Assembly (NCBI GenBank): GCA_934539295.1
Contig: CAKTCN010000001.1
Location: 62,001-126,000 of the forward strand
DNA from: an uncultured Allosphingosinicella sp.
Lineage (GTDB): Bacteria > Pseudomonadota > Alphaproteobacteria > Sphingomonadales > Sphingomonadaceae
Direction: 5' to 3'
DNA: 64,000 nucleotides
Of the stretch, positions 3,084 through 63,343 are shown piece after piece; the first letter of the stretch is position 1, and each line of letters begins with the position of its first letter. A program made the position numbers and the translations under genes. A model generated the notes under the pieces. The model ran no database searches. It was not told where the DNA came from and saw nothing but the letters and a program-made list of their open reading frames with translations.

Positions 3084-3128
3084 GGCAACAGGGTCTATAG
3101 CCTTCGGGCAATGAGGAGTATTTGAGAC

Positions 3129-5683: not shown

Positions 5684-5701
5684 AACACGGCCGAAAATCC
5701 A

Positions 5702-6109: not shown

Positions 6110-6152
6110 CTTGCATGCCTGGCCTCCGCGCTGCCCAGGCGCCGCTGCCTCT

Positions 6153-14396: not shown

Positions 14397-14450
14397 ACGT
14401 AGCTGAAGCGGCAACAGACCGCGCGGCTCGCAATGAGGAGGGGAATGCTG

Positions 14451-42447: not shown

Positions 42448-45087
42448 ATGTCGCTTATGCCGCGCCTGTTCCAGGCAACCCTTCCGTTCACCCTGATCGC
42501 CCTGGGCCTTTCGCAGCCGGCGCACGCGCAGGGGGCGGCCGATGCGGACCTGCCGGCCGAGGCACAGGATGAAGAGATCGTCATCACCGGGACCTATGCC
42601 CGAAGCCTGGCAGCCGCGACCGAGACCAAGCGCCAGGCGTCCTTCGGCGTGGACTCGATCAATGCGACGGACATCGGCAAGTTTCCAACCCAGAACGTCG
42701 CCGAGGCGCTTCAGCTGGTGACCGGCGTTGCCATTACCCGGCCGCGCGGTGAGGGCCTTTATGTGAGTGTGCGCGGCCTTGGTCCGCAGTTCCAGAACAC
42801 CCTGCTCAACGGCCGCACGGTCGCGATCAACGACCTAATCGAAAATGGCGGCGCCAATGGCCGCCAGTTCCGGTTCGAGATGCTCCCGGCAGAGTTCGTC
42901 TCGCAGATCGACGTGGTGAAGACGCCGACCCCGGACATGACCGAGGGCGCGCTTGGCGGCAATATCGACGTCCGCACGGTCCAGCCGCTCGACGTGGGCA
43001 ACAAGACCACGCTCAACCTTCGCGCCACCTACACCACGATGACCGAGAAGGTGAAGCCGAACGCAACGGTGATCACCAGCGCGGTCAGCGGCGACGAGAG
43101 CGTCGGCCTGCTGGTCGGTGCGCAATATTGGGGCAAGAACGTGCGCAACGACCGCTGGTACAATACCGGCTGGACGCTCGACCGCTTCACCCCGGTGCTC
43201 GGTGCCGGCTACTACACGCCGACGCGCACGCGCCCGACCGTGGAGACCGAGAAGCGCGAGCGGCTTTCCGCCATCGTGTCGGCACAGTGGCGCCCGTCCG
43301 ACGAACTCGAGACCAGCCTCGATATCCTCGCGACGCGTCTCGATGTCGCCTATGACGAATTCGGCCTCGACATCTATCCCGACGACACCAGCGTTGCCGG
43401 CCACCGTCCGGTGCTGGTGCCGGGATCCTACACGCTGGACGGCGACACGGTGGTGGCCGCGACGATCAACGACGTGCGCTTCATGGCCTCGCGCGAATAT
43501 AGCCTCAATCGCCACGACCTCGTCAGCGTGGGCCTGAAGCAAAGCTGGACGCCCGAAAGCTGGGACATCTCGGCCAATGTGAACTGGTCCTACGCGCACA
43601 GCTTCCACCCCAGCTTTGACGTGGGCACGGTGCGCAGCCGCGCCATGTTCTTCGCGCCGCTCACCTATGATGCATCAGGCGGCTACAAGGTCGTTCCGAC
43701 CTTCACGACCCCGATCGATCCGACCAATGCCGCCAATTACGTCCTCTACCCGTTCAACATCGCGCCGAAGAACAGCAAGGATTGGGACACGTTCGCCCGT
43801 CTCGACGCCGCGCGCGTCATGGACGGCTTCCTCAGCAAGGTCGCGTTCGGCGGTGAATATCACCGCCGTAAGCGCGATTACTGGCGGCGCGACTTCACGG
43901 TCAATCCGGGCCAGGTCCCGCTGACGACCTTCGCGCCCGACGGCTACGAACCCATTCCGTTCGACGATTTGCTGGAAGACGTGCCCGGCAATGCGCCGCG
44001 CAACTGGATCGTACCGATCACCAGCGTCTTCTACGACAGGCTCTTCACCGATGCGGTGGCGAACGCGCCGCTGGCGCCAGGCGACCTGCGCGCATCCTAT
44101 GTCGTCAGCGAGGAAACGGCAGCCGCCTATGTCCGCGCCGATTATGCATTCCCGCTCGGCAGCATCGACGTGACCGGCAATGTCGGCCTTCGCTACGTCC
44201 ACACCGATCAGGTGGCGAGTGGCACGCTGACCATCGGCACCGCGCCGACGCCGGCGAGCTTTCCCAAGACGTTCAACAATTGGCTGCCGAGCTTCAACCT
44301 GCGTGCCGAGTTCACGCCGGAGCTGATCGGCCGCCTTGCCGCCAGCCGCGTGCTCACCCGTCCCAACGTCACCCAAAGCGCGCCGCAGATCAGCGTCTCG
44401 ACCGACGCCGCGACCGGCAGCGGCGGCAATCCGGAGCTCGTTCCCTTCCTTGCCACGCAGTTCGACGCGTCGCTGGAATGGTATTTCGACCGGGCCGCAT
44501 CCCTAACCGGCGCCGTCTTCTACAAGAAGATGGACGATTATATCACCGCGCAGAACATCAATGTGGAGATACCGGGCCGCGGCACGATCCTGCTGAGCAC
44601 GCAGGTCAATGGCGGCGATGCCAAGGTCTATGGCGTCGAGGCCGCCTACAACCAGGTCTTCACTTTCCTGCCCGAGCCGTTCGACGGCCTCGGCATCCAG
44701 GCCTCCTATACCCACACGGAGGTCGAGGCGAGCTACACGGCCGGCGCACGCACGATCACCGATCAGATGAGCGGCCTGTCGAAGAACAGCTTCAACATCG
44801 TCGGCTTCTATGATTACGGCCCGGTCTCGGCGCGGCTTTCCTATGTGTGGCGCGACAAATATCTGTCGAGTTCGGGTAGCACGACCACAACGCCGACCTA
44901 TATCGATGCGTTCGGATCGCTGGACGGCAATTTGTCGTACCGCGTGACGGACAGGACGATGCTGAGCCTTGAGGCGATCAACATCGCCGGCGCCCGCCAA
45001 TATAGCTACAGCGACGACAAGCTGCGCTTCAACGAAATCCATTATTGGGGCCGCACCGTGTTGTTCGGCATCAGGACCGAATTCTGA
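42448..45087 (+). CDS. TonB-dependent receptor coupled to a PI-PLC-like gene
   Basis: The 879-residue outer-membrane receptor begins with a signal peptide ending QPAHAQG. The TonB box/plug onset EEIVITGTYARSLAAATETK, plug elements KFPTQNVAEALQLVTGVAI and LYVSVRGLG, and the barrel end YWGRTVLFGIRTEF place it in the TIGR01782-like group. Unlike the two pectin-locus receptors, it has no uronate operator upstream. Its stop overlaps the next start by one base (TGATG), so the receptor and the phosphodiesterase are translationally coupled; the likely cargo is a phosphorylated inositol or related phospho-ligand (inference). Confidence 0.93.
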   Translation: MSLMPRLFQATLPFTLIALGLSQPAHAQGAADADLPAEAQDEEIVITGTYARSLAAATETKRQASFGVDSINATDIGKFPTQNVAEALQLVTGVAITRPRGEGLYVSVRGLGPQFQNTLLNGRTVAINDLIENGGANGRQFRFEMLPAEFVSQIDVVKTPTPDMTEGALGGNIDVRTVQPLDVGNKTTLNLRATYTTMTEKVKPNATVITSAVSGDESVGLLVGAQYWGKNVRNDRWYNTGWTLDRFTPVLGAGYYTPTRTRPTVETEKRERLSAIVSAQWRPSDELETSLDILATRLDVAYDEFGLDIYPDDTSVAGHRPVLVPGSYTLDGDTVVAATINDVRFMASREYSLNRHDLVSVGLKQSWTPESWDISANVNWSYAHSFHPSFDVGTVRSRAMFFAPLTYDASGGYKVVPTFTTPIDPTNAANYVLYPFNIAPKNSKDWDTFARLDAARVMDGFLSKVAFGGEYHRRKRDYWRRDFTVNPGQVPLTTFAPDGYEPIPFDDLLEDVPGNAPRNWIVPITSVFYDRLFTDAVANAPLAPGDLRASYVVSEETAAAYVRADYAFPLGSIDVTGNVGLRYVHTDQVASGTLTIGTAPTPASFPKTFNNWLPSFNLRAEFTPELIGRLAASRVLTRPNVTQSAPQISVSTDAATGSGGNPELVPFLATQFDASLEWYFDRAASLTGAVFYKKMDDYITAQNINVEIPGRGTILLSTQVNGGDAKVYGVEAAYNQVFTFLPEPFDGLGIQASYTHTEVEASYTAGARTITDQMSGLSKNSFNIVGFYDYGPVSARLSYVWRDKYLSSSGSTTTTPTYIDAFGSLDGNLSYRVTDRTMLSLEAINIAGARQYSYSDDKLRFNEIHYWGRTVLFGIRTEF

Positions 45088-46187
45088 TGGGCATCGGCCT
45101 TGCCACCATCGCTGCGCTGGCGCTTGCCGGCGCAGCGCCGCCCCTGGCGATGAACGATGTCCAGGTCGTCGGCTCGCACAACAGCTTCAAGCGGCCGATC
45201 GCACCAGCCGTCATGGACAGGATCCGGGCCATGGAGCCACGGCTCGCCGACGGGCTCGAATATGATCACGTGTCGATCACCCGGCAGCTCGAAACGGGCG
45301 TCCGGCAATTGGAGCTCGATATCTTCGCCGATCCCGAGGGCGGGCGCTATGCCGATCCCAAGGGCGAGGCCTGGGCGAGGGCGGCGGGCGAGACGACCGG
45401 CTTTGATCGCGCGGCGATGCTGAAGCCGGGCTTCAAGGTGCTCCACATTCCCGACATCGACTATCTCAGCACCTGCCCGACCCTCATCGCCTGCCTGAAG
45501 GAGGTCGATGCCTGGTCGCGGGCGCATCCCGATCACCTGCCGGTCATGATCACGATCAATGCGGCCGACCGGCCTTCGGGGCGGCCCGGCATCTCCGATC
45601 CGCTGCCGCTCGACAACGCGGTCCTGCTCGATGCGCTGGATGCCGAAATCCGATCGGTGCTGCCGGGCAGGAGGCTGATCACGCCGGACGAGGTGCGCGG
45701 CGATGCGGCCAGCCTGCGCGAAGCGGTGCGGACACGGGGCTGGCCCTCCTTGTCGGCGGCGCGCGGACGGATTTACATCCTGCTCGACGTGCGAGATGCC
45801 GTTTCGGACGTCTATCGCGCGGGCCGGCCTTCGCTTGCGGGCCGTGCGATGTTCGGCTGGTATCCGGACGGGCAGCCGGAGGCCGTGGTGCAGATCGTCC
45901 AGGACCCGCTGGTCGACGGCGACAAGATCAGGCGCTGGGTATCGGAAGGAATAATCGTCCGCACCCGCACCGACGCCAACACGGTCGAGGCACGCACCGG
46001 CGATTTCACCAAGGCGGAGGCCGCGATGGCGAGCGGCGCCCAGGCAATCAGCACCGATTATTATCCGGGCGCTCCTGATCCCCTCGGCAAAGGCTTCGTC
46101 GTCTCTTTGCCCGGAAACGCCATCGCGCGCTGCAGTCCCGTGCGCGTAGCCGCGGGTTGCGCGGACCCGGACGCCGACCGACCGTAA
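45087..46187 (+). CDS. calcium-dependent phosphoinositide phospholipase C-like protein, exported
   Basis: The 366-residue protein starts at ATG 45087 overlapping the receptor stop. A short signal peptide precedes VVGSHNSFKRPI with catalytic-type H31. RQLELDIFADPEGG (74-86) and KVLHIPDIDYLSTC (117-130) supply the second histidine and acidic calcium ligands, matching the PLC-like TIM barrel (PF16670-type). It would cleave phosphodiester bonds of inositol phosphate head groups or a related substrate in the periplasm. Coupling with a TonB-dependent receptor suggests scavenging of phosphate from phosphoinositides or phytate-like compounds (inference). Confidence 0.85.
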   Translation: MGIGLATIAALALAGAAPPLAMNDVQVVGSHNSFKRPIAPAVMDRIRAMEPRLADGLEYDHVSITRQLETGVRQLELDIFADPEGGRYADPKGEAWARAAGETTGFDRAAMLKPGFKVLHIPDIDYLSTCPTLIACLKEVDAWSRAHPDHLPVMITINAADRPSGRPGISDPLPLDNAVLLDALDAEIRSVLPGRRLITPDEVRGDAASLREAVRTRGWPSLSAARGRIYILLDVRDAVSDVYRAGRPSLAGRAMFGWYPDGQPEAVVQIVQDPLVDGDKIRRWVSEGIIVRTRTDANTVEARTGDFTKAEAAMASGAQAISTDYYPGAPDPLGKGFVVSLPGNAIARCSPVRVAAGCADPDADRP

Positions 46188-48638: not shown

Positions 48639-48810
48639 GGCAAGGAGCATCACATGCTGCTGCCGCATCTTCGCAAGAGTAGAGCTGGGCCTTTGCCACC
48701 CGCCGCCATCATCGGGGATGCCATGTCGCGCGCGGCATGGCCTCCTGGAAGGCGGCGGGCGGGAAGAGTGACCTGGCAGGTCCGGAACCCGCGCACTTGC
48801 CTCTTGACGA

Positions 48811-48824
48811 GATGATGTATCATC
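48811..48824. promoter_or_regulatory. palindromic operator upstream of His-rich receptor
   Basis: GATGATGTATCATC is a perfect inverted repeat of GATGAT with a two-base centre, 39 bases before the receptor start and just after a TTGACG-like -35 element. The reverse complement matches the site at 51182 in 13 of 14 bases. A metal repressor of the Fur/Zur type is the leading guess. Confidence 0.7.
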
Positions 48825-48863
48825 GCCAGAGACGCCGCTCCTGAATGTTCGAGGGGGTAACAA

Positions 48864-51110
48864 TTGTTCAAGATCTGCTTGGCAGGCGCACGCGTGCGCC
48901 TGCTGTCGATGGTATCCGTCGCGGCGCTCAATCCTGTTGCGGCCGCGGCGGAGGCACCTGCGGGTGAGGTTTCAACGCAAGCTGCGGACGAGATCGTGGT
49001 CGTCGGGCGCTCGCTGGGCCGGGACGTGGCGGAAGCGTTGCCCGTGCAGTTCCTGGCCGGGGACGAACTGGCCCATCGGCGCCTGGGCGGGCTGGGCGAG
49101 ACGCTGGCCGGGCTGCCGGGCATCCATCTCGACAATTTTGGCGGCGGTGCATCGCGCCCGGTGATCCGCGGCCAGACTGTGCCGCGGATCGAGGTGCTAA
49201 GCGACGGCGCCAACCTGTTCGACGTGTCGTCGGTATCGCCCGATCATGCGATCACGACCGATCCGCTGCTGCTGGACGCGATCGAGATCCAGCGCGGACC
49301 GGCAGCGGCGCGCTATGGCGGGAATGCGCTGAACGGCGCGATCAACCTGATCGACAGCAAGGTTCCCCGGCGCGTGCCGGCCGGCGGCATCACCGGTGCT
49401 GCCGAGGCTCGCTTCGGCACGGGCGACGAGGAGAAGACGGTGGTCGGCCGGATCACCGCCGGGCTGGGCCAGTTCGCCGTCCACGCCGAAGGCGCACGCC
49501 GCGCGGCGGAGAATTACGACGTGCCGGACGCATATGGTTCCGACAAGCTGCGCGACTCCTTTGCGCAGAGCAGCAGCTACGCCGCGGGTGCGTCGTGGAT
49601 CACCTCTAACGGGTATCTGGGCGCGTCGTACAGCCGGCTCGAAAGCCGATATGGGCTGCCCGGGCACAGTCACGCCAATGGCGTGTGCCACCTCCACGCG
49701 CCCGACCTGCATTGCGAGCCGCATGGCAGCCTCATCGACCCGTTCGAAGGCCTGAACGATGCCGACACTGCCTATATCGACCTAGAGAGCGAGCGGGTCG
49801 ACGTGCGGGCGGATTACGACAAGCTGCTGCCCGGGCTGGAGCATGCGCGCCTGCGCCTGTCCTACACCGACTACGGCCATGACGAGATTGACGGCCGGAC
49901 ATTGTTCTCGCGCTTCACCAACGAAGTCTATGACGCGCGGCTGGAGCTGACCCATGCGCCGTTGCTCGGCTTCACTGGCACGCTGGGCGGGCAATATACC
50001 GACGGCACCTTCAGCGGACTGGACGCGAACGACCTGCATCTTCCCCCGGAGGATCAGCGCGGCTTCATCAAGATGCGCGACGTCAGCACCGAGAATATCG
50101 CCGTCTTCCTCAGCGAGCGCCGCGCGATCGGGCCGGTCGATGTCGAGCTTGCCGGCCGCTACGACTGGCGCCGGAGCCGGCCGACCTATCCCGCGTTCGA
50201 GGAGGTCTATGGCTTGACGCGCGAGGCGGCGATGGCGCTCCCCCCGTTCGTTCGCAACCTGCTCCTCAACGAATATGACCAGCTCATCACCTTCCGCGAA
50301 GCGCGCCATGAACTCCTTTCGCTGTCCGCCAGCGCGAACTGGAACATCGGCAACGGCTATTCCGCCGCGCTGTCGATGGCGCGGTCCGAACGCGCGCCCA
50401 GCGTGCGTGAGCTTTATGCCGGGTCGAACAACCTGGCGACCAACAGCTACGAGATCGGCTTGCTACGGACCCAGCTTCTCGGGGCCGGCTTCGGTAGCAA
50501 CTCGCCCGGCATTACCGAGCGCGCCAAGTCGATCGACCTGACCTTGCGCAAGGCGGACGGCCCGCTCGGCTTCGAGGTCGGCCTGTTCTACCAGGATATC
50601 GGCGATTACGTGTTCGCCCGCTTCCTCGAGGAGGAGAACGAGACCGGCGTGCCGCAACGGCTGCTGCTCTACACCGCCTCGGACGTGCGCTTCATGGGGC
50701 TGGACGGCGAGCTGAGTTACCGGTTCACGCCGCAGTCGCGCGTCACCCTGTTCGGCGACTATGTCGATGCGAAGCTTGAAAGCGAGGACGACAACGTCCC
50801 GCGCATTCCGCCGGGCCGCCTGGGTGCGCGCTACGAGCACACCGCCGGGCCGATCGCGGGCAATGTGGAATATTACCACACCTTCGATCAGGACAAGGTC
50901 GCGGCTTATGAGACGCCCACGCCCGGCTACGACATCGTCAATGCGACACTCGCCTACCGGTTCGACCTGGGCCGTGCCAGGCAGGTCGAATTCTACGTGC
51001 GCGGCACCAACCTGCTGAACGCGCTGGCATTCGTGCACACCTCCTTCGTCAAGGACCAGTCACCCTTGCGCGGGCGGAGCTTCGTCCTGGGAATGCGACA
51101 CGCATTCTGA
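48864..51110 (+). CDS. TonB-dependent receptor with His/Cys-rich loop (ZnuD-like)
   Basis: The 748-residue outer-membrane receptor starts with TTG five bases after GAGGGGGT. A signal peptide ends near VAAAAEA. The TonB box ADEIVVVGRSLG, plug (GETLAGLPGIHLDNFGGGAS, RPVIRGQ) and IEIQRGPAAARYGGNALNGAIN are intact; the barrel ends GRSFVLGMRHAF. A loop at 268-287 has six histidines and two cysteines in 20 residues, as in zinc receptors of the ZnuD type. It is followed after 177 bases by a second receptor and ABC genes, with a matching operator in front of each part. Zinc is the likely metal; copper or another transition metal is possible. Confidence 0.88.
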   Translation: MFKICLAGARVRLLSMVSVAALNPVAAAAEAPAGEVSTQAADEIVVVGRSLGRDVAEALPVQFLAGDELAHRRLGGLGETLAGLPGIHLDNFGGGASRPVIRGQTVPRIEVLSDGANLFDVSSVSPDHAITTDPLLLDAIEIQRGPAAARYGGNALNGAINLIDSKVPRRVPAGGITGAAEARFGTGDEEKTVVGRITAGLGQFAVHAEGARRAAENYDVPDAYGSDKLRDSFAQSSSYAAGASWITSNGYLGASYSRLESRYGLPGHSHANGVCHLHAPDLHCEPHGSLIDPFEGLNDADTAYIDLESERVDVRADYDKLLPGLEHARLRLSYTDYGHDEIDGRTLFSRFTNEVYDARLELTHAPLLGFTGTLGGQYTDGTFSGLDANDLHLPPEDQRGFIKMRDVSTENIAVFLSERRAIGPVDVELAGRYDWRRSRPTYPAFEEVYGLTREAAMALPPFVRNLLLNEYDQLITFREARHELLSLSASANWNIGNGYSAALSMARSERAPSVRELYAGSNNLATNSYEIGLLRTQLLGAGFGSNSPGITERAKSIDLTLRKADGPLGFEVGLFYQDIGDYVFARFLEEENETGVPQRLLLYTASDVRFMGLDGELSYRFTPQSRVTLFGDYVDAKLESEDDNVPRIPPGRLGARYEHTAGPIAGNVEYYHTFDQDKVAAYETPTPGYDIVNATLAYRFDLGRARQVEFYVRGTNLLNALAFVHTSFVKDQSPLRGRSFVLGMRHAF

Positions 51111-51181
51111 CGGGGAGGGGCGGCGGTCCGCATCTGCCGCCTCCGCTCGCGCAAACATAGACGGCGCAGACGACACTCGAA

Positions 51182-51195
51182 GATGATACATCATT
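51182..51195. promoter_or_regulatory. palindromic operator upstream of second receptor and ABC operon
   Basis: GATGATACATCATT is an inverted repeat of GATGAT with one mismatch and equals the reverse complement of the site at 48811 except for the last base. It is 92 bases before the receptor ATG at 51288 and would co-regulate both transcription units. Confidence 0.7.
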
Positions 51196-51287
51196 ACCAT
51201 TGCACTGCAGCAGAGTGTTGGTATGGGATGATGCAACATACCGATTAATGCGGTCCTGCCGCGCTCGGCGATCCCAATGGAGTTAAC

Positions 51288-53357
51288 ATGCTTATCGTTG
51301 CCGCTGTGCCCGCACGTCTGTGTTCCTCCGCTCTTGCACTGGTGCTCGTGACGGGGGCGGCGCCGGCGTTCGCCCAGGCGCAGGATGGCGAGGACGAGCC
51401 GGAGATCGTCGTGCTGGGAACGCGCAACGCCGTCGATCGCACCTTGTCGTCCGATCGCGTGACGGAGCGCATGTCGCAGTCGAGCCGCTCGATCGAGCGC
51501 GACATATTGGACGCCGCGGGAACCTACCGCCTGAGCGACGCACTGGAACTGGTCAGCGGGTTCAGCCAGCAGAATAATCGCGGCGGCGTGATCGACAATT
51601 TCGCCGTGCGCGGCTTCCTCGGCACGCCCGATGGGGGCGCCGAATATTATCTGAACGGCTTCCTGGCGAACCGTGGCATGGCCCCGCCGCGCGATCCGGC
51701 CACGACCGAACGGATCGAGGTGCTGAAGGGGCCGGCCGGTGCCTTGTTCGGCGATGTCGATCCGGGTGGGCGGGTGAACATCGTCACCAAGACGCCGCGC
51801 TTCGCCTCCCACGCAAGCGCCATGGTCAGCTACGGCTCGTTCGACACGCGCCGCGCGGAAATCGACGTGACGGGACCGCTGGCGAGCAGGCTGGCGGCAC
51901 GAATCGTGGTCGCGGCAGAGGATAGCGACGGGTGGCGCGATCATGTGTCGCTCCAACGCCGCATCGTGTCGCCTTCGCTCACCTGGCGCCCGGGCGAGGC
52001 GGTGCAGCTTACCTATGTCGGTGAGTTCAGCCGGTTCGACACGCCCTTCGATCGCGGCATCCCGGCGATCGACGGCGATGCCAACGCGCTGCCGCGCTCC
52101 GCTTATTATGGCGAGCCGTCCAACGGGCTTACCCGGTCGCGCAACGACCAGCATCAGCTTACCGGCCAGGCGGAACTCGGCAGTGGCTGGTCGCTGAATG
52201 GCGGGCTGGTCTGGCGGACCGGCACGTTGAAGGGACTGTCCGCGGATCAGTCGCGCATCGTCGGCACGTCGCTGTGGCGCCAGCGCCGGTCGCGCGACTT
52301 CAGCGTGGACGACCTGTCGGCGCGGCTGGAGCTTGCGGGCCAGATCGGCAGCCATCGTGTCAGCGTCGGCCTCAAGGGCTATCGCTTCATCTACGGCGAA
52401 CGCTGGCTGCGCATCAATCCGTCGGAGGCAGCGCCTTATGCGATCGACCTGTTCGATCCAGTCTATGGCGCCGTCGCAGCTCCGCTGCGGCCGTTCACCA
52501 ACAATGACGAGACCCGATGGGCCGGCACCTTCTACCTGCAGGACATGTGGAAGGTCACCGACCGGCTGACCGTGGTCGGCGGCGCGCGGATCGACCCCTA
52601 TCGGCAGAAGATCGTCAACAACAATACGGGCAGCACCGGACGCAACATCGACGAACCCGTCAGCCTGCGCCTCGGCGGCCGCTACCGCGTCAGCGACGTG
52701 ATCGCCGTGCACGCAAATTGGGGCGAGAATTTCTCGCTCAACACCGGCACCGACCGCAACGGCGACGGCTTCGGGCCGGAGACGGGGCGTGGCTACGAGG
52801 TCGGGATTGCAGCCAACCTGCCCGGTATCGACCTGGCCGCAACCTGGTTCGACATACGCAAGCGGGATATCCTCACCACCGACCCGGTGGACCCGAACTA
52901 CCTTGCCCCGGTCGGCAGCATCGTCAGCCGTGGCATCGAGCTCGATGCATCGGCCCGGCTCGGGACGCGCTGGCAGATCGTGGCCAATTACGCCTGGCTC
53001 GATGCAAAGGCGGACGACGCGGCATTCCCGTCGCCCGACGTGCTGAACGTCGCGGAGCATTCGGGCACTGTGCTCCTCGTCCACCATTTCCCGACCGATC
53101 GCGGCAACTGGCAGCTCAGCGGCGGCGTCGCTTATGTCGGCGACCGCGCCGGATCGGTCGCGACCACCCCCGTGCTGCTGCCCGACTATGTGAAGGCAAA
53201 GGCCGCCATCGAAGCGCCGCTGACCGATCAGCTTCGCTTCCGGCTGGAGGCCGACAACCTATTCAACGCGCGCTACGCGGCCAGCTCCTACAGCGCGCTC
53301 TGGATCTACCCCGGCGCCCCGCGCACCGTCCGCGCCTCGCTTCGCCTCGCAATCTGA
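51288..53357 (+). CDS. TonB-dependent siderophore-type receptor
   Basis: The 689-residue receptor has a signal peptide ending APAFAQA and a TonB box PEIVVLGTR. The plug shows SIERDILDAAGTYRLSDAL, FAVRGFLG, RIEVLKGPAGALFGDVDPGG and VNIVTKTPR, the signature of ferric-siderophore receptors (TIGR01783-like). The barrel ends with PRTVRASLRLAI. It is the first gene of an operon with an ABC ATPase (12-base gap) and two permeases. If the operator is zinc-responsive, the ligand may be a zinc-binding metallophore rather than an iron siderophore. Confidence 0.9.
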   Translation: MLIVAAVPARLCSSALALVLVTGAAPAFAQAQDGEDEPEIVVLGTRNAVDRTLSSDRVTERMSQSSRSIERDILDAAGTYRLSDALELVSGFSQQNNRGGVIDNFAVRGFLGTPDGGAEYYLNGFLANRGMAPPRDPATTERIEVLKGPAGALFGDVDPGGRVNIVTKTPRFASHASAMVSYGSFDTRRAEIDVTGPLASRLAARIVVAAEDSDGWRDHVSLQRRIVSPSLTWRPGEAVQLTYVGEFSRFDTPFDRGIPAIDGDANALPRSAYYGEPSNGLTRSRNDQHQLTGQAELGSGWSLNGGLVWRTGTLKGLSADQSRIVGTSLWRQRRSRDFSVDDLSARLELAGQIGSHRVSVGLKGYRFIYGERWLRINPSEAAPYAIDLFDPVYGAVAAPLRPFTNNDETRWAGTFYLQDMWKVTDRLTVVGGARIDPYRQKIVNNNTGSTGRNIDEPVSLRLGGRYRVSDVIAVHANWGENFSLNTGTDRNGDGFGPETGRGYEVGIAANLPGIDLAATWFDIRKRDILTTDPVDPNYLAPVGSIVSRGIELDASARLGTRWQIVANYAWLDAKADDAAFPSPDVLNVAEHSGTVLLVHHFPTDRGNWQLSGGVAYVGDRAGSVATTPVLLPDYVKAKAAIEAPLTDQLRFRLEADNLFNARYAASSYSALWIYPGAPRTVRASLRLAI

Positions 53358-53369
53358 GAAAACATCCGA

Positions 53370-54110
53370 ATGACCCAAGAAAGCTCCACACCGATCCTGA
53401 TCGACGGCCTGACCCTCGCTTATGGCGAGCATCGCGTGCTCGACGGCCTGTCCTTGCAGGTTCCGCCGGCAAGCATCACCGCTTTGCTGGGCGGCAATGG
53501 CGCCGGCAAGTCCACCACACTGGCTGCGCTGCTGGGCTTCGTGCGCGCGCAGTCGGGCACCATCGAGGTCGGCGGCGTGGATCCGGGGACCGACCCGGAC
53601 GGCGCCCGGCGCCGCATCGCCTACCTGCCGGAAAATGTCGCCCTCTACGAGCATCTCAGCGCGGTCGAGAATGCCGATTATCTCCTCGCACTGTCCGACG
53701 AGCGCAAGGGCCGGGACGTGATCACCGGTGCCTTTGCCGCCGCCGGTCTGCAGGAACGCGCCTGGGACCAGCGGCTCGGCGGCTTTTCGAAGGGCATGCG
53801 GCAGAAGGTGGCGATCGCCGTAGCGCTGCTGCGTGAAGTGCCCGTGCTGCTGCTCGACGAGCCGACGTCCGGGCTCGACCCGCGCGCCACGGCGGACTTC
53901 AACGCGCTGGTCCGCGCGGTTCGCGACCGCGGCACGGCGGTGCTGATGGTCACGCACGATCTGCTGTCGGCCGCCGACGTGGCCGACCGGATCGGCTTCC
54001 TCGAGGCCGGTCGCATCGTGGAAGAGGTGGAGGCGAGCGGCGCCGACCGGTTCGACGTGCGCGCGCTCCATGCCCGCTTCGCCGTGGGGGCCGGGGGGCT
54101 CGCCGCATGA
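53370..54110 (+). CDS. ABC transporter ATP-binding protein
   Basis: The 246-residue cytoplasmic ATPase has Walker A LLGGNGAGKSTT (39-50), a Q-loop, the signature GGFSKGMRQKVAIAVAL (LSGGQ variant), Walker B VLLLDEPTSGLD and a switch histidine in MVTHD. It is of the ABC-2/CcmA-NosF type that pairs with multi-span permeases rather than with a binding protein. It overlaps the next permease by four bases (ATGA). Confidence 0.93.
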   Translation: MTQESSTPILIDGLTLAYGEHRVLDGLSLQVPPASITALLGGNGAGKSTTLAALLGFVRAQSGTIEVGGVDPGTDPDGARRRIAYLPENVALYEHLSAVENADYLLALSDERKGRDVITGAFAAAGLQERAWDQRLGGFSKGMRQKVAIAVALLREVPVLLLDEPTSGLDPRATADFNALVRAVRDRGTAVLMVTHDLLSAADVADRIGFLEAGRIVEEVEASGADRFDVRALHARFAVGAGGLAA

Positions 54111-55546
54111 GCGTCACGCGCCTTGTCGCCCGCGACGAATTGCGGCTGATGGCCCGCAACCGTGTCGCGGTGATCGCCTTCATCCTGCTGGTCCTGCTGA
54201 CGCTCGTCGCCGTGCTGAGTTCCTGGTCGCACCAGAGCGGCAATGCCGAACTGCGCGCCCGGCATCAACATGAGGCGGAACATGCCTTTGATGCACAGCC
54301 CGACCGCCATCCCCACCGCGTGGTCCATTACGGCCATTTCATCTTTCGTCCGCTCGGGCCCTTGGCCGCCTTCGACCCTGGCGTCGACGCCTTCACGGGC
54401 AGCAGCATGTTCCTGGAAGGGCATCGGCAGAACACCGCCAATTTCGGCGATGTGCGGCAAAGCTCGCTGCTGGTCCGCTTCGGCCAGCTCACCCCCGCCT
54501 TCGTGCTTCAGGTGGTCGCACCGCTGCTGCTGATCTTCCTCGGCTATGGCGCGATCGCGCGTGAGACGGAGCGCGGCACGATGCGCCTGCTGATGCTGCA
54601 GGGCGCCTCGCGCAGCCAGGTGCTGCGGGGCAAGCTGCTGTCGCTGGGCATCGTGGCGCTGCTCGCCGGCCTGCCCGCCATGGCCGGCCTGGTGCTGATC
54701 GCCGGACAGCCCGGCGCGATGGCGCTGCCGATGGTGGTCATCGCGCTCGGCTATGCCGTCTATCTCGCGCTCTGGGTGGTGCTGATCACGCTCGTTTCCG
54801 TTCTGGTCCGGCGCAGCCGCGACGCGCTGCTCGCGCTGGTCGCCTTGTGGGCGGTGGCGGTGGTGCTGTTGCCGCGCGTCGCGCCGGACGTGGCGAGCGC
54901 CGCCGTGCCGCTCCAGAACCGGCTCCAGACCGATGTCGCCATTGCGCGCGACCTTCGCCAGATGGGCGACAGCCACAATCCGGACGATCCCCACTTCGCC
55001 GCCTTCAAGCAATCGGTGCTGGAACGCTACGGGGTGTCCCGCGTCGAGGATCTGCCGGTCAACTACAAGGGCCTGCTCGCGCTGGAAGGGGAGAGGCTCA
55101 CCTCCGACCTGTTCGATCGCTACGCGGGGCGAAGCTATGCAGCCCAGGACAAGCAGAACGCGCTGGTCGAAGCCGTGGGCGTGATGAGCCCCGCCATCGC
55201 GCTGCGATCGCTGTCGATGGCGGCGGCGGGCACCGATTTCGCCGGGCATCGCCGTTTCCTCGAACAGGCGGAGGCGTATCGCTTCGCGCTCGTGCAGCGG
55301 CTCAACCGCATGCAGGCCGAAGCCGTCACCTACAGCGACGATACCGCGACCGACGCCGGTGCCGATCGCCGCAAGCGCGTTTCAGGACAGAATTGGGAAG
55401 AGATGCCGGACTTCACTTACCGGGCGCCGACCGGCGCTGCGCTCGCCGCCGGCGCGCTGCCGGGGCTTGCCATCCTGCTGGCCTGGCTGGGTATCGCCGC
55501 TTTCCTGCTCGCCCGCGCAAGCCGCCGCCTGGGGAGCAGCCGATGA
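54107..55546 (+). CDS. ABC-2 permease, DUF3526-type, with His-rich periplasmic segment
   Basis: The 479-residue inner-membrane protein has one helix at about 20-40, a periplasmic stretch with eight histidines between residues 42 and 77 (HQHEAEHAFDAQPDRHPH and VVHYGHF), then helices near 125-145, 165-200, 205-235 and 245-265, a large domain at about 270-440, and a final helix near 445-475. The pattern matches DUF3526 permeases. The histidine-rich stretch supports a role with metal or metallophore. It overlaps both neighbours by four bases, so translation is coupled through the whole ABC unit. Confidence 0.88.
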   Translation: MSVTRLVARDELRLMARNRVAVIAFILLVLLTLVAVLSSWSHQSGNAELRARHQHEAEHAFDAQPDRHPHRVVHYGHFIFRPLGPLAAFDPGVDAFTGSSMFLEGHRQNTANFGDVRQSSLLVRFGQLTPAFVLQVVAPLLLIFLGYGAIARETERGTMRLLMLQGASRSQVLRGKLLSLGIVALLAGLPAMAGLVLIAGQPGAMALPMVVIALGYAVYLALWVVLITLVSVLVRRSRDALLALVALWAVAVVLLPRVAPDVASAAVPLQNRLQTDVAIARDLRQMGDSHNPDDPHFAAFKQSVLERYGVSRVEDLPVNYKGLLALEGERLTSDLFDRYAGRSYAAQDKQNALVEAVGVMSPAIALRSLSMAAAGTDFAGHRRFLEQAEAYRFALVQRLNRMQAEAVTYSDDTATDAGADRRKRVSGQNWEEMPDFTYRAPTGAALAAGALPGLAILLAWLGIAAFLLARASRRLGSSR

Positions 55547-56793
55547 CCTTGTGGATGCACGAACTGCGCCTGCTGCTGCGTGCGAGGCTGACGGTGATCG
55601 CACTTGCGCTGCTGGCGATCCTTGCAAGTGCGGCCGTGATTGCCGGCATGGCGGAAGTGTCGCGCCAGCATGCCGCCATCGCCGCCATCCCCGCCGCCCA
55701 GGCCGAGGATATCGGTGCCGTCGCCGACTATGTCGACCGCACCAAGGATGCCGGAAGCGCCGCTTATTACAGCTTCCATCCGACCTGGGATGCGCCGTCG
55801 CCGCTCGCCTTCGCGGCGCTCGGCATGCGCGATGTCTCGCCCTTCATCCTGCGCGTTCGCGCGCTGGGGCTGGAGGCGCAGATCTATGACGGGGACACGT
55901 TCAATCCCGAACTGGCGCTGCCCGGCCGGTTCGACTTCGCCTTCGTGCTGGTGTTCCTGGCACCCTTGTTCGTGATCGCGCTGTTCCATGACCTGGTCTC
56001 GGGCGAGCGCGAGGCAGGGCGCCTGCGCACGCTGACGGCCTTGCCGCGTGGTGGGGCAGGGCTGATGCGCCGCCGCACCATGCTCCGGCTCGCCTTGCTG
56101 TGGGCGGCCTTGGCGGTGCCGTTCACAATTGGCGCAATCGTCTCCGGCGTGGAGGCGACGGCGATCCTGCTGCTGCTCGCGGTGGTCGATGCCTATCTGT
56201 TGTTCTGGATCGGCCTGGCTGCGCTGATCGGCTGGCTGCGCTGGACGTCGGTCGCCAATGCCGCGACGCTCGCCGCCTTGTGGCTGGTGCTCGTGCTCGT
56301 CGCGCCCACGCTTGCGCATGTCGCGATCAACCGCGCGGTGCCGGTCGACCAGGGCGCGGAGATCGCGCTGGCCCAGCGGGAGCGGGTGAACCACGCCTGG
56401 GACATCCCGCGCGAAGAAACGATGCGCCGCTTCTATGCCAACCACCCGCGCTGGGCGAACTCCGCGCCGCTGGGCACGGCGTTCCATTATAAATGGTATC
56501 TCGCATTCCATCAGAATGGCGACGAGAGCGTGGCTGGGCAGGTTCGCGCCTATCGCGCCGGGCTGGAGCGGCGCGATGCGGCGGCGCGGGCACTCGGCTG
56601 GGTGCTGCCGTCGGTCGGCGTGCAGGCGCTGCTCACGCGCGTGGCCGCAACCGATCTCCAGGCGCAGCTCGCCTATCAGGACCGGATCCGCGACTTCCAC
56701 CGCCGCCTGCGCGAATTCTACTACGGCTATCTTTTCACCGACCGGCCGTTCGGCAAGGCCGACTTCGCACGCGCGCCTGTGTTCAGGGAGTAA
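55543..56793 (+). CDS. ABC-2 permease, DUF3526-type, second subunit
   Basis: The 416-residue inner-membrane protein starts at the ATG of the ATGA overlap with the first permease; the open frame to 54847 is a shadow. It has an N-terminal helix at about 13-36, a periplasmic domain, helices near 130-150, 185-205, 207-230 and 235-265, and a C-terminal domain ending near a helical RRLREFYYGYLF. It is the likely partner of the other DUF3526 permease and forms a heterodimer with it. No periplasmic binding protein is present, which favours an exporter or extractor over a classic importer. Confidence 0.86.
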   Translation: MTLWMHELRLLLRARLTVIALALLAILASAAVIAGMAEVSRQHAAIAAIPAAQAEDIGAVADYVDRTKDAGSAAYYSFHPTWDAPSPLAFAALGMRDVSPFILRVRALGLEAQIYDGDTFNPELALPGRFDFAFVLVFLAPLFVIALFHDLVSGEREAGRLRTLTALPRGGAGLMRRRTMLRLALLWAALAVPFTIGAIVSGVEATAILLLLAVVDAYLLFWIGLAALIGWLRWTSVANAATLAALWLVLVLVAPTLAHVAINRAVPVDQGAEIALAQRERVNHAWDIPREETMRRFYANHPRWANSAPLGTAFHYKWYLAFHQNGDESVAGQVRAYRAGLERRDAAARALGWVLPSVGVQALLTRVAATDLQAQLAYQDRIRDFHRRLREFYYGYLFTDRPFGKADFARAPVFRE

Positions 56794-56925: not shown

Positions 56926-59274
56926 CTAGCGGTCGATCACTTCGCGGACCTTGCTGGCGAGCGTCTGGAACGTAAACGGCTTGGCGAGCAGGTCCACGCC
57001 CTCGTCCAGCCGGCCGTCGTGCATGATCGTGTCGCGGGTATAGCCTGAACTGTATAGGACCTTGAGCGAAGGCTGCAGCGCCTGCGCCACGCGCGCCAGT
57101 TCGCTGCCGGACATTTGCGGCATCACCACGTCCGTCATCAGCAGCGTGATGGGCTTTTCCTGCCGCTCCAGCAGCCGGAGGCCCGAGGGGCCGTCATGCG
57201 CCTCGATCACGCGGTAGCCGAGTTCGCGCAGCGCGCCGACGCTATAGGCGCGCACGTCGTCATCGTCCTCGACCACCAGGATCGTTTCGTGGCTGTTGCC
57301 GCGGCCGGCCGCCGCGTTGTCGCTGCCCGCTTCCGATGCCTCTTCCGATCGGGCGCGGGCGAGGAGCAGGGTGACGGTGGTGCCGCGGCCAAGTTCGGAT
57401 TCCACGATCACGCCGCCGCCCGACTGGTGGGCGAAGCCATGCACCATCGACAGGCCCAGGCCCGTGCCCTTGCCGACATCCTTGGTGGTGAAGAAGGGGT
57501 CGAACACCTTGGCGAGCGTTTCGGGCGACATGCCGGTGCCGGTATCGGCCACGCTGATCGCGACATAATCGCCTGCGCCGACGCCTTCCACCTCGCCCGC
57601 CGCGACCCGGCGGTCGCGCGCGCAGATCGTCAGGGCGCCGCCTTCGGGCATGGCGTCGCGTGCATTCACCGCCAGGTTCAGGACGGCATTTTCCAGCTGG
57701 TGCGGGTCGGCCTCGATCCGCCACAGGTCGGCCGGGACGTCGAACGCGACCGCGACCGCTTCCGTGATCGAGCGGCTGAGCAGGTCGGACATGCCGGCGA
57801 TGAGCTTGGGCACGTCGATGCTGCGGGGCTTGAGCGGCTGGCGGCGCGAAAAGGCGAGCAGGCGGTGCGTCAGGGCCGCGGCACGTTCCGCGCCCTTGGC
57901 CGCATGTTCGAGCGAGCGGCGCAAGCGCGGATCGGCATCATTGTCGAGCCGCCGCACCGCCGTGTCGATCCCGCCGATGATGATGGTCAGCAGGTTGTTG
58001 AAGTCATGGGCGATGCCGCCGGTCAGCTGGCCCACCGCCTCCATCTTCTGCGCCTGGCGTAATTGTTCCTGCGCCGCCTGCAGCCGCGCTTCCGCCTGCA
58101 TCCGGTCGGTCACTTCGTAGGAGGTGCTGGACGCGCCGATCTGCCGGCCCTTGTCGTCGAGCAGGGGGCTGAAACGGACATCGTACCACCGCCGGTCATG
58201 TTCGTCGGCCCCGAACTCCGCCACCAGCGAATAGGTCTCGCCCCCAAGCGCGCGGTCCCAGATCTCGCGCTGCTGCTCGCGTATCTCGGGCGTGGCCGCG
58301 AACAGCGACAGGAAATCTTCGCCCACCTGCGCGGGCCGGCCGAACACGGCGACGTGGGCGTCTGCATTGGCCCGGTTGATCGCCATGACCCGGTAGTTGC
58401 GGTCGAGCACCGTGACGGCCGCCGGCGACGTTTCGATCAGGTCGGCATAGACCTTCTTCTCGGCAAGCTCGTCATCGATCCTTTGTTCCAGCCGCTCGTT
58501 CAGCGCGCGAAGCTCGGCCTCCTGCGCCTTGGCGCGGGTGATGTCGTATATGGCGCCGAGCAGGCGGTAGCCGGAGCCCGCACCCTCGCGGATCACCTCG
58601 CCGCGGCGCGCGATCCAGCAGACGCGATCGTCGTCGTTCCGGCGGATGCGGAACTCGCCGTCGAGTGCGTCGGGTATCGCCGCTCCGCCGCCGCCCTCGA
58701 TGATGAGCGGCCCGTCGCCCCATTCGACGACGCTGTTGATGGTGCGCACCGGCAGGCGATCGGTCGGGTGGAGGCCGAGAAGGCGGCAGAATTCGTGGCT
58801 GACCGACACGGTCGCGAACCCGTCGCTATATTCGAAGGTGCCGACGCCGCCCGCGCTCTGGGCGATGCGAAGCCGCTCCTCCGTGCGCTTGCGCTCCGTG
58901 ACGTCCACCAGCAGGCCGGTGAAGCGGGTCGGCTCGTCATCGGCATCGCGGTGGCTCTGGCCCCGGCCGTGCATCCACAGCACCGCGCCCGACGGGTCGA
59001 TGATCCGGAATTCCTTGGAAAACAGCTCCGCCCCGCTCAGCAGCCCCGCGACCGCGATGCGGATGCGTGCGCGATCCTCCGGATGGATCGCGGCAAAGAA
59101 GCTGGAGGTTGGATAGCCATCGCCGAGGCCGGCCGGGTCGAGCCCGTACAATTCGGCAAAGCGCGGATCGACGAACAGGCGGTCGCCGACAATGTCCCAG
59201 TCCCAAGAGCCGCTCGCTCCGGCTGCGGCAAGTACCGCGCGCAGCTGGTCCTCGCTGGACCGCGGTTCAGCCAT
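56926..59274 (-). CDS. hybrid sensor histidine kinase with PAS domains
   Basis: The 782-residue cytoplasmic protein has three PAS-type sensor domains (about 10-130, 140-260 and 285-395), a phosphoacceptor domain with GGIAHDFNNLL, an ATPase domain with NAVLNLAVNARDAM, DTGTGMSPE and GKGTGLGLSMVHGF, and a C-terminal receiver with VVEDDDDVRAYS and LLMTDVVMPQMSG. No membrane segment is present. It starts eight bases inside the cheC gene and is the last gene of the chemosensory operon, so it probably adds phosphate flow to the pathway. The ligand of the PAS domains is unknown. Confidence 0.93.
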   Translation of the reverse strand: MAEPRSSEDQLRAVLAAAGASGSWDWDIVGDRLFVDPRFAELYGLDPAGLGDGYPTSSFFAAIHPEDRARIRIAVAGLLSGAELFSKEFRIIDPSGAVLWMHGRGQSHRDADDEPTRFTGLLVDVTERKRTEERLRIAQSAGGVGTFEYSDGFATVSVSHEFCRLLGLHPTDRLPVRTINSVVEWGDGPLIIEGGGGAAIPDALDGEFRIRRNDDDRVCWIARRGEVIREGAGSGYRLLGAIYDITRAKAQEAELRALNERLEQRIDDELAEKKVYADLIETSPAAVTVLDRNYRVMAINRANADAHVAVFGRPAQVGEDFLSLFAATPEIREQQREIWDRALGGETYSLVAEFGADEHDRRWYDVRFSPLLDDKGRQIGASSTSYEVTDRMQAEARLQAAQEQLRQAQKMEAVGQLTGGIAHDFNNLLTIIIGGIDTAVRRLDNDADPRLRRSLEHAAKGAERAAALTHRLLAFSRRQPLKPRSIDVPKLIAGMSDLLSRSITEAVAVAFDVPADLWRIEADPHQLENAVLNLAVNARDAMPEGGALTICARDRRVAAGEVEGVGAGDYVAISVADTGTGMSPETLAKVFDPFFTTKDVGKGTGLGLSMVHGFAHQSGGGVIVESELGRGTTVTLLLARARSEEASEAGSDNAAAGRGNSHETILVVEDDDDVRAYSVGALRELGYRVIEAHDGPSGLRLLERQEKPITLLMTDVVMPQMSGSELARVAQALQPSLKVLYSSGYTRDTIMHDGRLDEGVDLLAKPFTFQTLASKVREVIDR

Positions 59275-59905
59275 CTTCGCCGACGACGCGCGCGATGAAT
59301 TCGTCGAGCAATTCCTTCAGCGCCGCGAGCGAGGGTATGTCCATCAGCATGGCGATATAGCCGCGTATGTCGCGCTTGCGCACCGCGAAGTCGATGTAGA
59401 GGAACAGGACCAGGCCTTCATCCTCGGCCGCATCGCTCACTTCGAACAAGGTGGTGCCGTCGCCGCGCAGCACCTCGGGAATGGTCATGCTGAGCGAGCG
59501 CTTCAGCATGTTGGCCATGGTGGCGAGGCAGGAATTGAGGATCACGTTGCCGGTTTCGGCAAGCGCCTCATGCTCCATCTCGACCACTTCTTCGGCCGTG
59601 AGTTCGCCGCCGGTGACGGCGCGCACCAGTTCCAGGCTGTTCGATTCCGGGAAGATGAGCAGGGCGCGGCCGGAAAAGGGTCCGTCGAAATCCTGCCGCA
59701 CCGCCACCAGTTCGGACGTCTCGCGCTCGCTGATCAGGCGCGCGGCGCGGCGCTGGCTGACCACTTCGATCGAGGGCACCGACAACAGCACCTGGTCGCC
59801 GATCATCTTGCGCAGGTTGGACGCCGCACGGCTGACGCCGATATTGACGATCTCGGTCAGCGCGTCGCGTTCGAGCTCGCCGAGGTTCACCGCGTCGGGG
59901 ATCAT
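59267..59905 (-). CDS. cheC: CheC-like CheY-P phosphatase
   Basis: The 212-residue protein has two related helical repeats with acidic and asparagine residues: LTEIVNIGVSRAASNL and EMEHEALAETGNVILNSCLATMAN. These are the active-site motifs of CheC/CheX phosphatases that remove phosphate from CheY. It overlaps the receiver gene by four bases and the kinase gene by eight. No cheD is in the window. Confidence 0.88.
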   Translation of the reverse strand: MIPDAVNLGELERDALTEIVNIGVSRAASNLRKMIGDQVLLSVPSIEVVSQRRAARLISERETSELVAVRQDFDGPFSGRALLIFPESNSLELVRAVTGGELTAEEVVEMEHEALAETGNVILNSCLATMANMLKRSLSMTIPEVLRGDGTTLFEVSDAAEDEGLVLFLYIDFAVRKRDIRGYIAMLMDIPSLAALKELLDEFIARVVGEDG

Positions 59906-60285
59906 GCCCTCGTGTTTCTCAGCTTGAGCGCCGCGCCGGACAGGAAGCCGGAAAGCGCCTCGCTGGTGACGGGCTTGGCGATGAAGGCGGCGCCGACCTC
60001 GCGGGCACGGGCGACCACTTCATCCTGGATGTTGGCCGTGATGATCGCGATCGGCATTTCTGGGCGCAGCGCGCGCAGTTCGGCGGCAAGTTCCAGCCCG
60101 TCCTTTTCCGCCATGTTGAAATCGATGAGGGCCAGATCGATCGCCTGCCCGGCAAGCATGTCCAGCGCCTGCGCGGCGCTGCCCGCCTCGACCCTGGTCC
60201 AGTCCGGCTGCAGCTCGGCAACAGCGCGGCCGGCGACGATCCGCGCCAGCTTGCTGTCGTCCACAATCATGACGGTCATGCTCAT
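59902..60285 (-). CDS. single-domain response regulator (CheY-like)
   Basis: The 127-residue receiver has the acidic pair D9/D10 in VMIVDDSKLAR, phosphoacceptor D55 in LALIDFNMAEKDG, and the lysine motif FIAKPVTSEAL. It has no output domain. Its position between the STAS gene and cheC suggests it is the substrate of the CheA kinase and of CheC. It overlaps cheC by four bases. Confidence 0.92.
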   Translation of the reverse strand: MSMTVMIVDDSKLARIVAGRAVAELQPDWTRVEAGSAAQALDMLAGQAIDLALIDFNMAEKDGLELAAELRALRPEMPIAIITANIQDEVVARAREVGAAFIAKPVTSEALSGFLSGAALKLRNTRA

Positions 60286-60321
60286 TCGCGACTCTGCGTC
60301 CCTTGTCCCGGAATCCTGCGG

Positions 60322-60603
60322 CTATAGGTGATCGTTACGCCCACCGATATCCCCTTGTCCCTGCTCCATCGCCTGCAATGCCGGCATCAGCAGATCGCGC
60401 AGGAACGGATCGGCGGGCGGTGCCCCGATGGCGGGGCGCGCCACCAGCAGGACCTGCACCACCGCGCTGTGCAGCCGGGTGGCTTCGGACAGGTCGATCC
60501 TGCGCGACGGCGCCTCCGTCAGTGCGACCAGCAAGGGCTCCGCATCCTCCACGGCGCAATGGCCGGCCAGGTGGATGATCCCGTCCGCGATCCGCACCGT
60601 CAT
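60322..60603 (-). CDS. small STAS-like domain protein in che operon
   Basis: The 93-residue protein has a predicted STAS-like alpha/beta fold (VRIADGIIHLAGHCAVEDAE, SRRIDLSEATRLHSAVVQVLL); a serine in LHSAVVQ sits where anti-sigma antagonists are phosphorylated. Such proteins in chemosensory operons may link the kinase to a switch that is not the flagellar motor. It overlaps cheA by four bases (ATGA) and ends 36 bases before the receiver gene. Confidence 0.7.
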   Translation of the reverse strand: MTVRIADGIIHLAGHCAVEDAEPLLVALTEAPSRRIDLSEATRLHSAVVQVLLVARPAIGAPPADPFLRDLLMPALQAMEQGQGDIGGRNDHL

Positions 60604-62510: not shown

Positions 62511-63343
62511 CAGTCGCGTCGATAGACCATCGCGTCGCCCAGGCGAACCAGCCTGTATCGGGGATCGATGCGCGCCATCGACTCGCTGTGGCCCAGGCAC
62601 AGATAGCCGCCGGGATTCAGCGCCTCGTAAAGATGCGCGGCCGCGGTCATGCGCGCCTCATCGTCGAAGTAGATGAGGAGGTTGCGGCACAGGATGACGT
62701 CGAACTGGCCGGCGGCCGCGACTTCGGCCGGGTCGATCAGGTTCACCTGGCTGAACGCCACCGACTGGCGAAGATCCTCGATGATCCGGCGCTGGAACCG
62801 CTGTTCCGGTTCGAAATAGGCATCGCGCACCCGGTCCGGCAGCCGGGCCAGCGCGCGCTCGCCATACAAACCCTCGCGCGCGGCCAGCAGCGCGTCGGTG
62901 TCGATGTCCGATCCCACGATCTCGACATGATAGGCATCGACCAGCGGCCAGTTTTCCAGCAGCCAGATCGCGATCGAATAGCCTTCCTCTCCCGTCGCGC
63001 AGGGCAGGGACCAGATGCGGACGCGGTCGCCCGGCCGGCGGCCCTGGACGATGTCGGGCAGGATCGACGCGGTGAGAGCGGCGAGCTGCTGGTCCTCGCG
63101 GTAGAAATAGGTTTCGTTGATGGTGACCGCGTTGATCAGCGCCTGCCGCTCGGCCGGATCGCTGAGCAGGCGGGCGAAGTAGATGCGCATGTCCTCGCTG
63201 TCGGTACGCCGCAGCCGTTCGCCGATCCGACGTTCGAGATAATAGCGCTTGTTCTCGCCGAACGTCATGCCGGTCCAGCGGTTCAGCAGGGCGCTGATCC
63301 GCTGGAGCTCCTCGCCGGTGAGAAGATGGGGCGCGGGGTTCAC
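62510..63343 (-). CDS. cheR: chemotaxis protein methyltransferase CheR
   Basis: The 277-residue enzyme methylates chemoreceptor glutamates using SAM. It starts with GTG at 63343 in a four-base overlap (GTGA) with cheB; the frame is open to 63439, but that part belongs to cheB in another frame. The N-terminal helical domain (LERRIGERLRRTDSEDMR) is followed by the methyltransferase core with INETYFYREDQQL, WSLPCATGEEGYSIAIWL, IVGSDIDTDALLAAREG and FDVILCRNLLIYFD. Confidence 0.94.
   Translation of the reverse strand: MNPAPHLLTGEELQRISALLNRWTGMTFGENKRYYLERRIGERLRRTDSEDMRIYFARLLSDPAERQALINAVTINETYFYREDQQLAALTASILPDIVQGRRPGDRVRIWSLPCATGEEGYSIAIWLLENWPLVDAYHVEIVGSDIDTDALLAAREGLYGERALARLPDRVRDAYFEPEQRFQRRIIEDLRQSVAFSQVNLIDPAEVAAAGQFDVILCRNLLIYFDDEARMTAAAHLYEALNPGGYLCLGHSESMARIDPRYRLVRLGDAMVYRRD

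Follow-up and report, generated by a model that had tools for sequence, protein, structure and literature searches.

A candidate Zur-controlled zinc-scavenging module with a ZnuD-like receptor and a DUF3526 ABC-2 transporter in an uncultured sphingomonad

Introduction

What does a pair of DUF3526 permeases move, and which way? This question, which we consider worth work, is raised by a locus in a 64,000-nucleotide stretch of DNA from an uncultured Allosphingosinicella sp. (contig CAKTCN010000001.1, positions 62,001 to 126,000; the whole stretch is hereafter called the window), where five genes encode two TonB-dependent receptors (TBDR1 and TBDR2), an ABC-2 ATPase and two DUF3526 (PF12040) ABC-2 permeases (PERM1 and PERM2). 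A preliminary description of this DNA, made from its letters, had proposed a metal acquisition module, possibly for zinc, handling a metal‒metallophore complex. We read the locus, with a probability of about 0.8, as a Zur-controlled zinc-scavenging module, namely the sphingomonad counterpart of znuK‒znuGHI of Caulobacter joined by a ZnuD-like receptor. The zinc part of the earlier proposal stands because one receptor is ZnuD-like, because the other genes match the Zur-repressed znuK‒znuGHI, and because a Zur-type box is shared with zinc-type genes in relatives; the metallophore, as it was written there, is not supported. On these comparisons the assignment to zinc and Zur is very probable in itself, and for inward movement by the ABC part the odds appear even.

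The counterpart in Caulobacter

As far as the accessible text of the original report goes, Zur of Caulobacter crescentus binds and represses, in a zinc-dependent manner, znuK, the gene of a receptor, and znuGHI, which codes for an ABC-2 ATPase together with a pair of permeases; colony formation at 850 μM EDTA fails in znuK and znuL mutants and returns when zinc is added (PMC4176598, 2014). The same accessible text gives no znuGHI mutant or transport measurement for Caulobacter, and a review, likewise seen in part, lists znuGHI among zinc uptake systems (PMC6103462). The preliminary description had held that the role of DUF3526 pairs beside receptors is not established, a statement partly overtaken by the reported Zur binding and repression, and the present module adds to a Caulobacter system that is already known. 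No mention of DUF3526 or PF12040 was found in the literature searched.

The box printed for Caulobacter znuG occurs, letter for letter, in two (G113 and G094) of 199 genomes from the family of a Phenylobacterium metagenome-assembled genome, a family that is presumably Caulobacteraceae. In both genomes the exact box lies between a receptor gene and an ATPase gene, the latter being followed by two permease genes, and the products share 35–36% (receptor), 59% (ATPase), and 55–56% and 56% (permeases) identity with those of the window module. Locus L127 carries the box printed for CC1517/CC1518 and probably stands for the Caulobacter genes themselves; the identities are 35% for the receptor, 59% for the ATPase, 55.7% for PERM1 and 56% for PERM2, and a siderophore-type receptor (327 bits) lies beside its znuGHI counterpart. 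The Caulobacter box scores 23.5 bits with a matrix made from relatives of the window module. Among 14 named control genomes, DUF3526 was found only in Caulobacter vibrioides, which is also the sole control genome without a match to the ABC-3 (ZnuB-type) permease family at E 0.001 (two more lack one at E 1e-20). Judged by these alignments, the TBDR2-ATPase-PERM1-PERM2 genes correspond to znuK‒znuGHI.

A ZnuD-like receptor

The best solved relative of TBDR1 is ZnuD (PDB 4rdr, 9e-90). Residues 268–287 of TBDR1 hold six histidines and two cysteines (H268, H270, C275, H276, H278, H283, C284 and H287), exactly as the preliminary description had counted, and all eight are kept in the six relatives that were aligned, these being drawn from 82 loci after sequences with less than 50% identity or 60% of the length had been left out. 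The first part of this loop, HSHANGVCHLH, whose beginning is covered by the alignment, is set against 241-HSHEYDDCHAD-251 of ZnuD, the loop 3 cluster in which cadmium sites are described in the accessible text of PMC4557270. The buried ligands D99, H100 and E340 of ZnuD align with D127, H128 and E341 of TBDR1, with a numbering offset of 14 that was worked out by hand. The fourth ligand, H499, is replaced by N523, and TBDR1 is called ZnuD-like rather than ZnuD. With the ZnuD model of NCBIfam (NF038289) it reaches 466.2 bits, under the cut-off of 950.

TBDR2 had been described as siderophore-like, and its TIGR01783 match (Table 1) agrees with that description. The solved structures nearest to it are the enantio-pyochelin receptor and FoxA, the latter entry being also labelled CntO.

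Zur-type boxes in the window and in relatives

Relatives of PERM1 were collected in one search of a genome collection, which gave 219, and the best 80 loci of these 219 were kept; one of the 80 (L080) was too short and was dropped from the motif search. The stretches before the ATPase gene in 58 sphingomonad and related loci, searched together with the two intergenic stretches of the window, yielded the motif caATGaTAtaataTAtCATtg, and those of 21 xanthomonad loci yielded aAATGttATgacATaaCATTt. The former remains unchanged, as.ATG.TA.....TA.CAT., when the window sequences are taken out, and its score of 427 compares with 61–64 for Markov-shuffled sets. The matrix used for scoring was built from 26 sites in relatives and contains no site of the window, although the motif search behind it, with its 60 inputs, did take in the two intergenic stretches of the window.

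The preliminary description had seen palindromes before each transcription unit, and these were found again at 48811 (GATGATGTATCATC, exact), 51182 (GATGATACATCATT, one mismatch) and 51227 (GATGATGCAACATA, two mismatches). The unit it had given, GATGAT-N2-ATCATC, catches off centre a longer box, ATGATA-N5-TATCAT, which lies in the frame of Zur boxes. Taken alone, the GATGAT pattern was rejected as significant, since its four matches with at most two mismatches stand against 2.36 expected and 24 of 100 shuffles reach four. The three top matrix sites in the window are the same three palindromes (Table 1), and the fourth, at 13428, scores 9.6 bits. In random sequence, sites that reach 16 bits turn up at 0.5 per Mb and sites that reach 10 bits at 16.5 per Mb, and 2 Mb contained none of at least 18 bits; at this chance rate the third site, with 10.4 bits, is weak. 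The sites at 48805 and 51181 are boxes of the Zur type by comparison with relatives. The left half of the 48805 box overlaps a TTGACG hexamer (48804–48809).

In 15 genomes, ATGATAYNNTGTATCAT was matched with at most one mismatch at 14 places (17 rows), which fall in nine of the genomes. Eleven of the 14 are assigned, five at DUF3526 operons, four before MerC genes and two before receptor genes, one of the MerC places being shared with a ZigA-type GTPase gene (586 against the ZigA cut-off of 600). The other three, which are unassigned, are L090/L135, before a phosphoesterase gene, L092/L132, and L093/L136, before a small frame that we take by eye to be DUF2149-like and that has no Pfam match. 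In each of nine genomes two genes of the FUR family are present, a strong match and a weak one; three of the weak ones were tested and had the NCBI Zur model as best match (58, 67 and 59 bits, with the cut-off of 167 not reached). A site of at least 12 bits is found at five of nine loci of the weak, Zur-like gene, in contrast to none of nine loci of the strong one. Zinc genes of sphingomonads, znuABC among them, had been named as places to look for the motif. In form this check is positive: the box does precede the ZigA-type GTPase gene, MerC genes and receptor genes, and a site is present at those five Zur-like loci; znuABC could hardly carry it, because strong ABC-3 permease matches occur in two of 69 genomes of the family.

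The MerC genes with a Zur-type box are those of L085, L086, L087 and L133, and in L104 and L105 the Zur-like gene directly follows a MerC gene, a placement which suggests that some MerC proteins may have a role in zinc handling. One further gene is a neighbor in 32 of the 80 loci, and its L003 copy (5206–6996) encodes an M14 zinc carboxypeptidase.

Organization of the module and its surroundings

The five genes lie where the preliminary description had placed them, and their families agree with it as well. TBDR2, the ATPase and the two permeases are nearly contiguous, with a gap of 12 bp and then overlaps of 4 bp, so the module likely forms two transcription units. The mechanical list of open reading frames (ORFs) opens the PERM2 frame too early, at 54847. 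None of the five proteins matched the ABC-3 permease family.

Table 1. Coordinates of the module genes, the His/Cys loop and the box sites within the window.
Feature	Position	Strand	Details
TBDR1, ZnuD-like TonB-dependent receptor	48864..51110	+	748 aa; TTG start as listed
TBDR2, siderophore-type receptor, ZnuK counterpart by sequence	51288..53357	+	689 aa; TIGR01783 265.9 bits (cut-off 223.5)
ABC-2 ATPase, ZnuG counterpart by sequence	53370..54110	+	246 aa; PF00005 3.4e-29
PERM1, DUF3526 ABC-2 permease, ZnuH counterpart by sequence	54107..55546	+	479 aa; PF12040 2e-38; His-rich stretch
PERM2, DUF3526 ABC-2 permease, ZnuI counterpart by sequence	55543..56793	+	416 aa; PF12040 1.3e-34
His/Cys loop coding region, TBDR1 residues 268–287	49665..49724	+	first part is the counterpart of the ZnuD loop 3 cluster
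Zur-type box before TBDR1	48805..48825	+	TGACGAGATGATGTATCATCG; 18.0 bits
Zur-type box before TBDR2	51181..51201	-	AATGGTAATGATGTATCATCT on the minus strand; 16.5 bits
Second, weak box-like site before TBDR2	51226..51246	+	10.4 bits

Elsewhere in the window, tonB, exbB and two exbD genes stand in a row at 999–3557 and are able to energise receptors. Genes for the use of pectin and hexuronates (GH28, a mannitol dehydrogenase type, altronate dehydratase, LacI, UxaC and KduI) occupy 12856–34980, with a large receptor gene among them at 14433–17354. Another receptor gene, followed by one for a Ca-dependent phospholipase of the PI-PLC type, lies at 42448–46187. Downstream of the module, on the other strand, 56926–62600 encodes a hybrid PAS histidine kinase and proteins of the chemotaxis type, namely CheX/CheC, a response regulator and a CheA-type kinase.

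Permease histidines and fold

PERM1 has eight histidines in 36 residues (H42, H53, H55, H59, H68, H70, H74 and H77), the very number given in the preliminary description. In 82 close relatives of PERM1, H70, H106 and H290 are invariant, and H68 and H74 are each missing once. Among 28 distant first permeases, which were left when second-permease and fragment rows (two of 30) had been dropped, H70 and H106 are kept in all 28, H74 in 26, E104 in 25, H290 in 20 and H68 in 18. The conserved histidines are the residues to mutate. Fold matches include those to NosY, ABCA and an efflux pump, and a NosY-like fold is predicted for the permeases, whose periplasmic histidines are conserved. By hydropathy, PERM2 lacks a last transmembrane helix behind its DUF3526 part, as do 80 of 82 second permeases from relatives (L001–L080, L127 and L128); those of L127 and L128 have the helix.

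Distribution of DUF3526 loci

DUF3526 was found in 21 of 398 Pseudomonadota genomes. With a combined box matrix, 28 loci were scored, 20 from this phylum set (all but the G003 locus) and eight from Sphingomonadaceae stretches. A site of at least 17 bits is present at 18 of the 28, including 12 of the 20 phylum loci, and in 11 of these 12 a frame of the cluster starts no more than about 100 bp from such a site. With the module, a Pfam domain of unknown function becomes linked to zinc starvation across several groups of Proteobacteria. Control of every DUF3526 locus by Zur was considered and rejected, as ten of the 28 (L139, L141, L148, L150, L151, L152, L154, L157, L159 and L164) have no box at this threshold. 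A receptor match, weak in some cases, accompanies 25 of the 28 loci (not L142, L143 and L150). One of the loci without the box, L154 of genome G532, has a palindrome of its own, ATGCAA-N5-TTGCAT, at just two places: one before the receptor-DUF3526 operon and one before genes for an ATPase and a permease pair of the FtsX/MacB type (4357 and 12768).

Discussion

For the sphingomonad organism itself we infer the regulator, the ligand, metal binding by the permease and the direction of transport, and the following course of events is proposed. When zinc is sufficient, Zur would sit on the boxes before both units and block them, and upon zinc starvation it would leave the boxes. The ZnuD-like receptor would then catch zinc ions with its His/Cys loop, hand them to the buried site of D127, H128 and E341, and let them through with the help of TonB, and the ZnuK-type receptor would bring in zinc that an organic ligand probably carries. 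The DUF3526 transporter with its two permeases may then bind zinc or the zinc complex in the periplasm at H70, H74 and H106 (with H290 added in close relatives) and use ATP to pass zinc inward, thereby doing the work of ZnuABC.

That the DUF3526 permeases replace ZnuABC at the inner membrane is our best guess. Import is favored because the Caulobacter genes are switched on together with others for zinc uptake, because ABC-3 permeases are mostly missing, and because no synthesis gene was recognised nearby: the ORFs clustered in the flanks of the 80 loci include no recognisable metallophore biosynthesis gene, nor an opine metallophore synthase or dehydrogenase (cnt/zrm), although no family search was aimed at either. 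In one sample of the phylum, a strong ABC-3 match (E 1e-20) occurs in 5 of 21 DUF3526 genomes versus 43 of 50 others (Fisher p 8e-7), an anti-correlation which fits replacement without being proof of it. For ZIP transporters no clear pattern was seen at E 0.001, with matches in 21 of 69 genomes (6 of 14 with DUF3526 and 15 of 55 others).

Several observations weigh against this interpretation. The anti-correlation is confounded by kinship, and it is gone within Sphingomonadaceae, where strong ABC-3 matches occur in 0 of 14 DUF3526 genomes versus 2 of 55 others (p 1.0). As the preliminary description had said, the module is without a periplasmic binding protein, no such family being matched by its five proteins in the profile search; ABC-2 transporters are mostly exporters; import by one would be unusual; and a fold shared with NosY shows no function. 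The N523 substitution in TBDR1 belongs here too. At eight of the 20 loci from the phylum set no box reaches 17 bits, and 11 of the 58 loci score below zero just before the ATPase gene; in most of these 11 a receptor gene precedes the ATPase gene on the same strand, and several have a box of 18–23 bits before the receptor gene (for example L001 at 7131, L002 at 7055, L003 at 7103, L012 at 7132 and L036 at 7080). Coding sequence of the same loci gives a motif score of 382, nearly as high as the 427 before the ATPase gene since the loci are kin, and the motif score was thus rejected as proof of an operator. The operator argument is made instead because the same box precedes unrelated genes and because of the published Caulobacter box.

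The main rival explanation retains the Zur-controlled module and lets the ABC-2 pair export or recycle the ligand after zinc has been removed. The ABC-2 fold, with its NosY, ABCA and efflux-pump matches, speaks for it, and so does the accessible account of PA4063-4066 in P. aeruginosa, a Zur-controlled pair of the MacB type that was once annotated as zinc uptake and for which the evidence now points to pyochelin-cobalt export (PMC11481552). The recurring nameable ORFs in the flanks of the 80 loci are those for receptor, ATPase, permeases and M14 peptidase; neither a gene for biosynthesis nor an adaptor or a partner resembling TolC was recognised there, with no family search aimed at them; we regard ligand export as unlikely, though it deserves serious consideration. 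Another explanation is a NosDFY-like machine, in which ATP would move the large periplasmic domains so as to strip zinc from the complex that comes in or load a periplasmic acceptor, with nothing carried across the membrane. A shared fold says nothing of function, and no NosD-like partner was found among the five module proteins and the two genes upstream; we regard such a machine as improbable.

A siderophore system controlled by iron or copper, with no part for zinc, could be imagined from TBDR2, a siderophore-type receptor with the enantio-pyochelin receptor as its nearest solved relative, and from a palindrome at L164 that we presume to be Fur-like. The box type, the ZnuD-like receptor and the Caulobacter counterpart all argue the other way, and a siderophore-type receptor is found in L127 too, znuK being zinc-controlled according to the accessible text of PMC4176598; we consider a system of this kind very improbable.

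A broader proposal may be made, which we advance as a doubtful one. The DUF3526 pairs could form a distinct zinc-handling class of ABC-2 transporters, with a NosY-like core, a site of histidines in the periplasm (H-x3-H and E-x-H) and no binding protein, that stands in for ZnuABC in many Proteobacteria and is perhaps the first ABC-2-type importer of a metal or metallophore. If this is true, PF12040 can be given a function.

Comparison with known systems

ZnuABC would share with the module a Zur-controlled zinc step at the inner membrane, and differs from it in that no ABC-3 permease or binding protein is matched in the module. NosDFY, whose role is the assembly of a copper site of nitrous oxide reductase, has the permease fold in common (NosY); the module differs from it by the large additions that DUF3526 makes in the periplasm, by having two permeases that are not alike, and by receptors in the place of NosD beside them. 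In P. aeruginosa, PA2911-2914 and PA4063-4066 resemble the module as a Zur-controlled receptor with importer and a Zur-controlled exporter-type ABC system, respectively, so far as the accessible text of PMC11481552 describes them; their ABC parts are of the siderophore-importer and MacB types rather than ABC-2/DUF3526. With ZnuD of Neisseria meningitidis (4rdr), TBDR1 shares the His/Cys cluster of loop 3 and three of the four buried ligands, and it departs from ZnuD at N523 and in its score (466 of 950 bits).

The closest known system is znuK‒znuGHI (CC1517-CC1520) of Caulobacter crescentus. In G113 and G094 the receptor gene and the ABC genes are divergently arranged around a single box, whereas those of the window are co-directional; the window adds a ZnuD-like receptor just upstream; the consensus box arms are GATA/TATC rather than GTTA/TAAC; and PERM2 of the window is without the last transmembrane helix. 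Common to both are the siderophore-type receptor, the ABC-2 ATPase, the two DUF3526 permeases and the Zur-type box.

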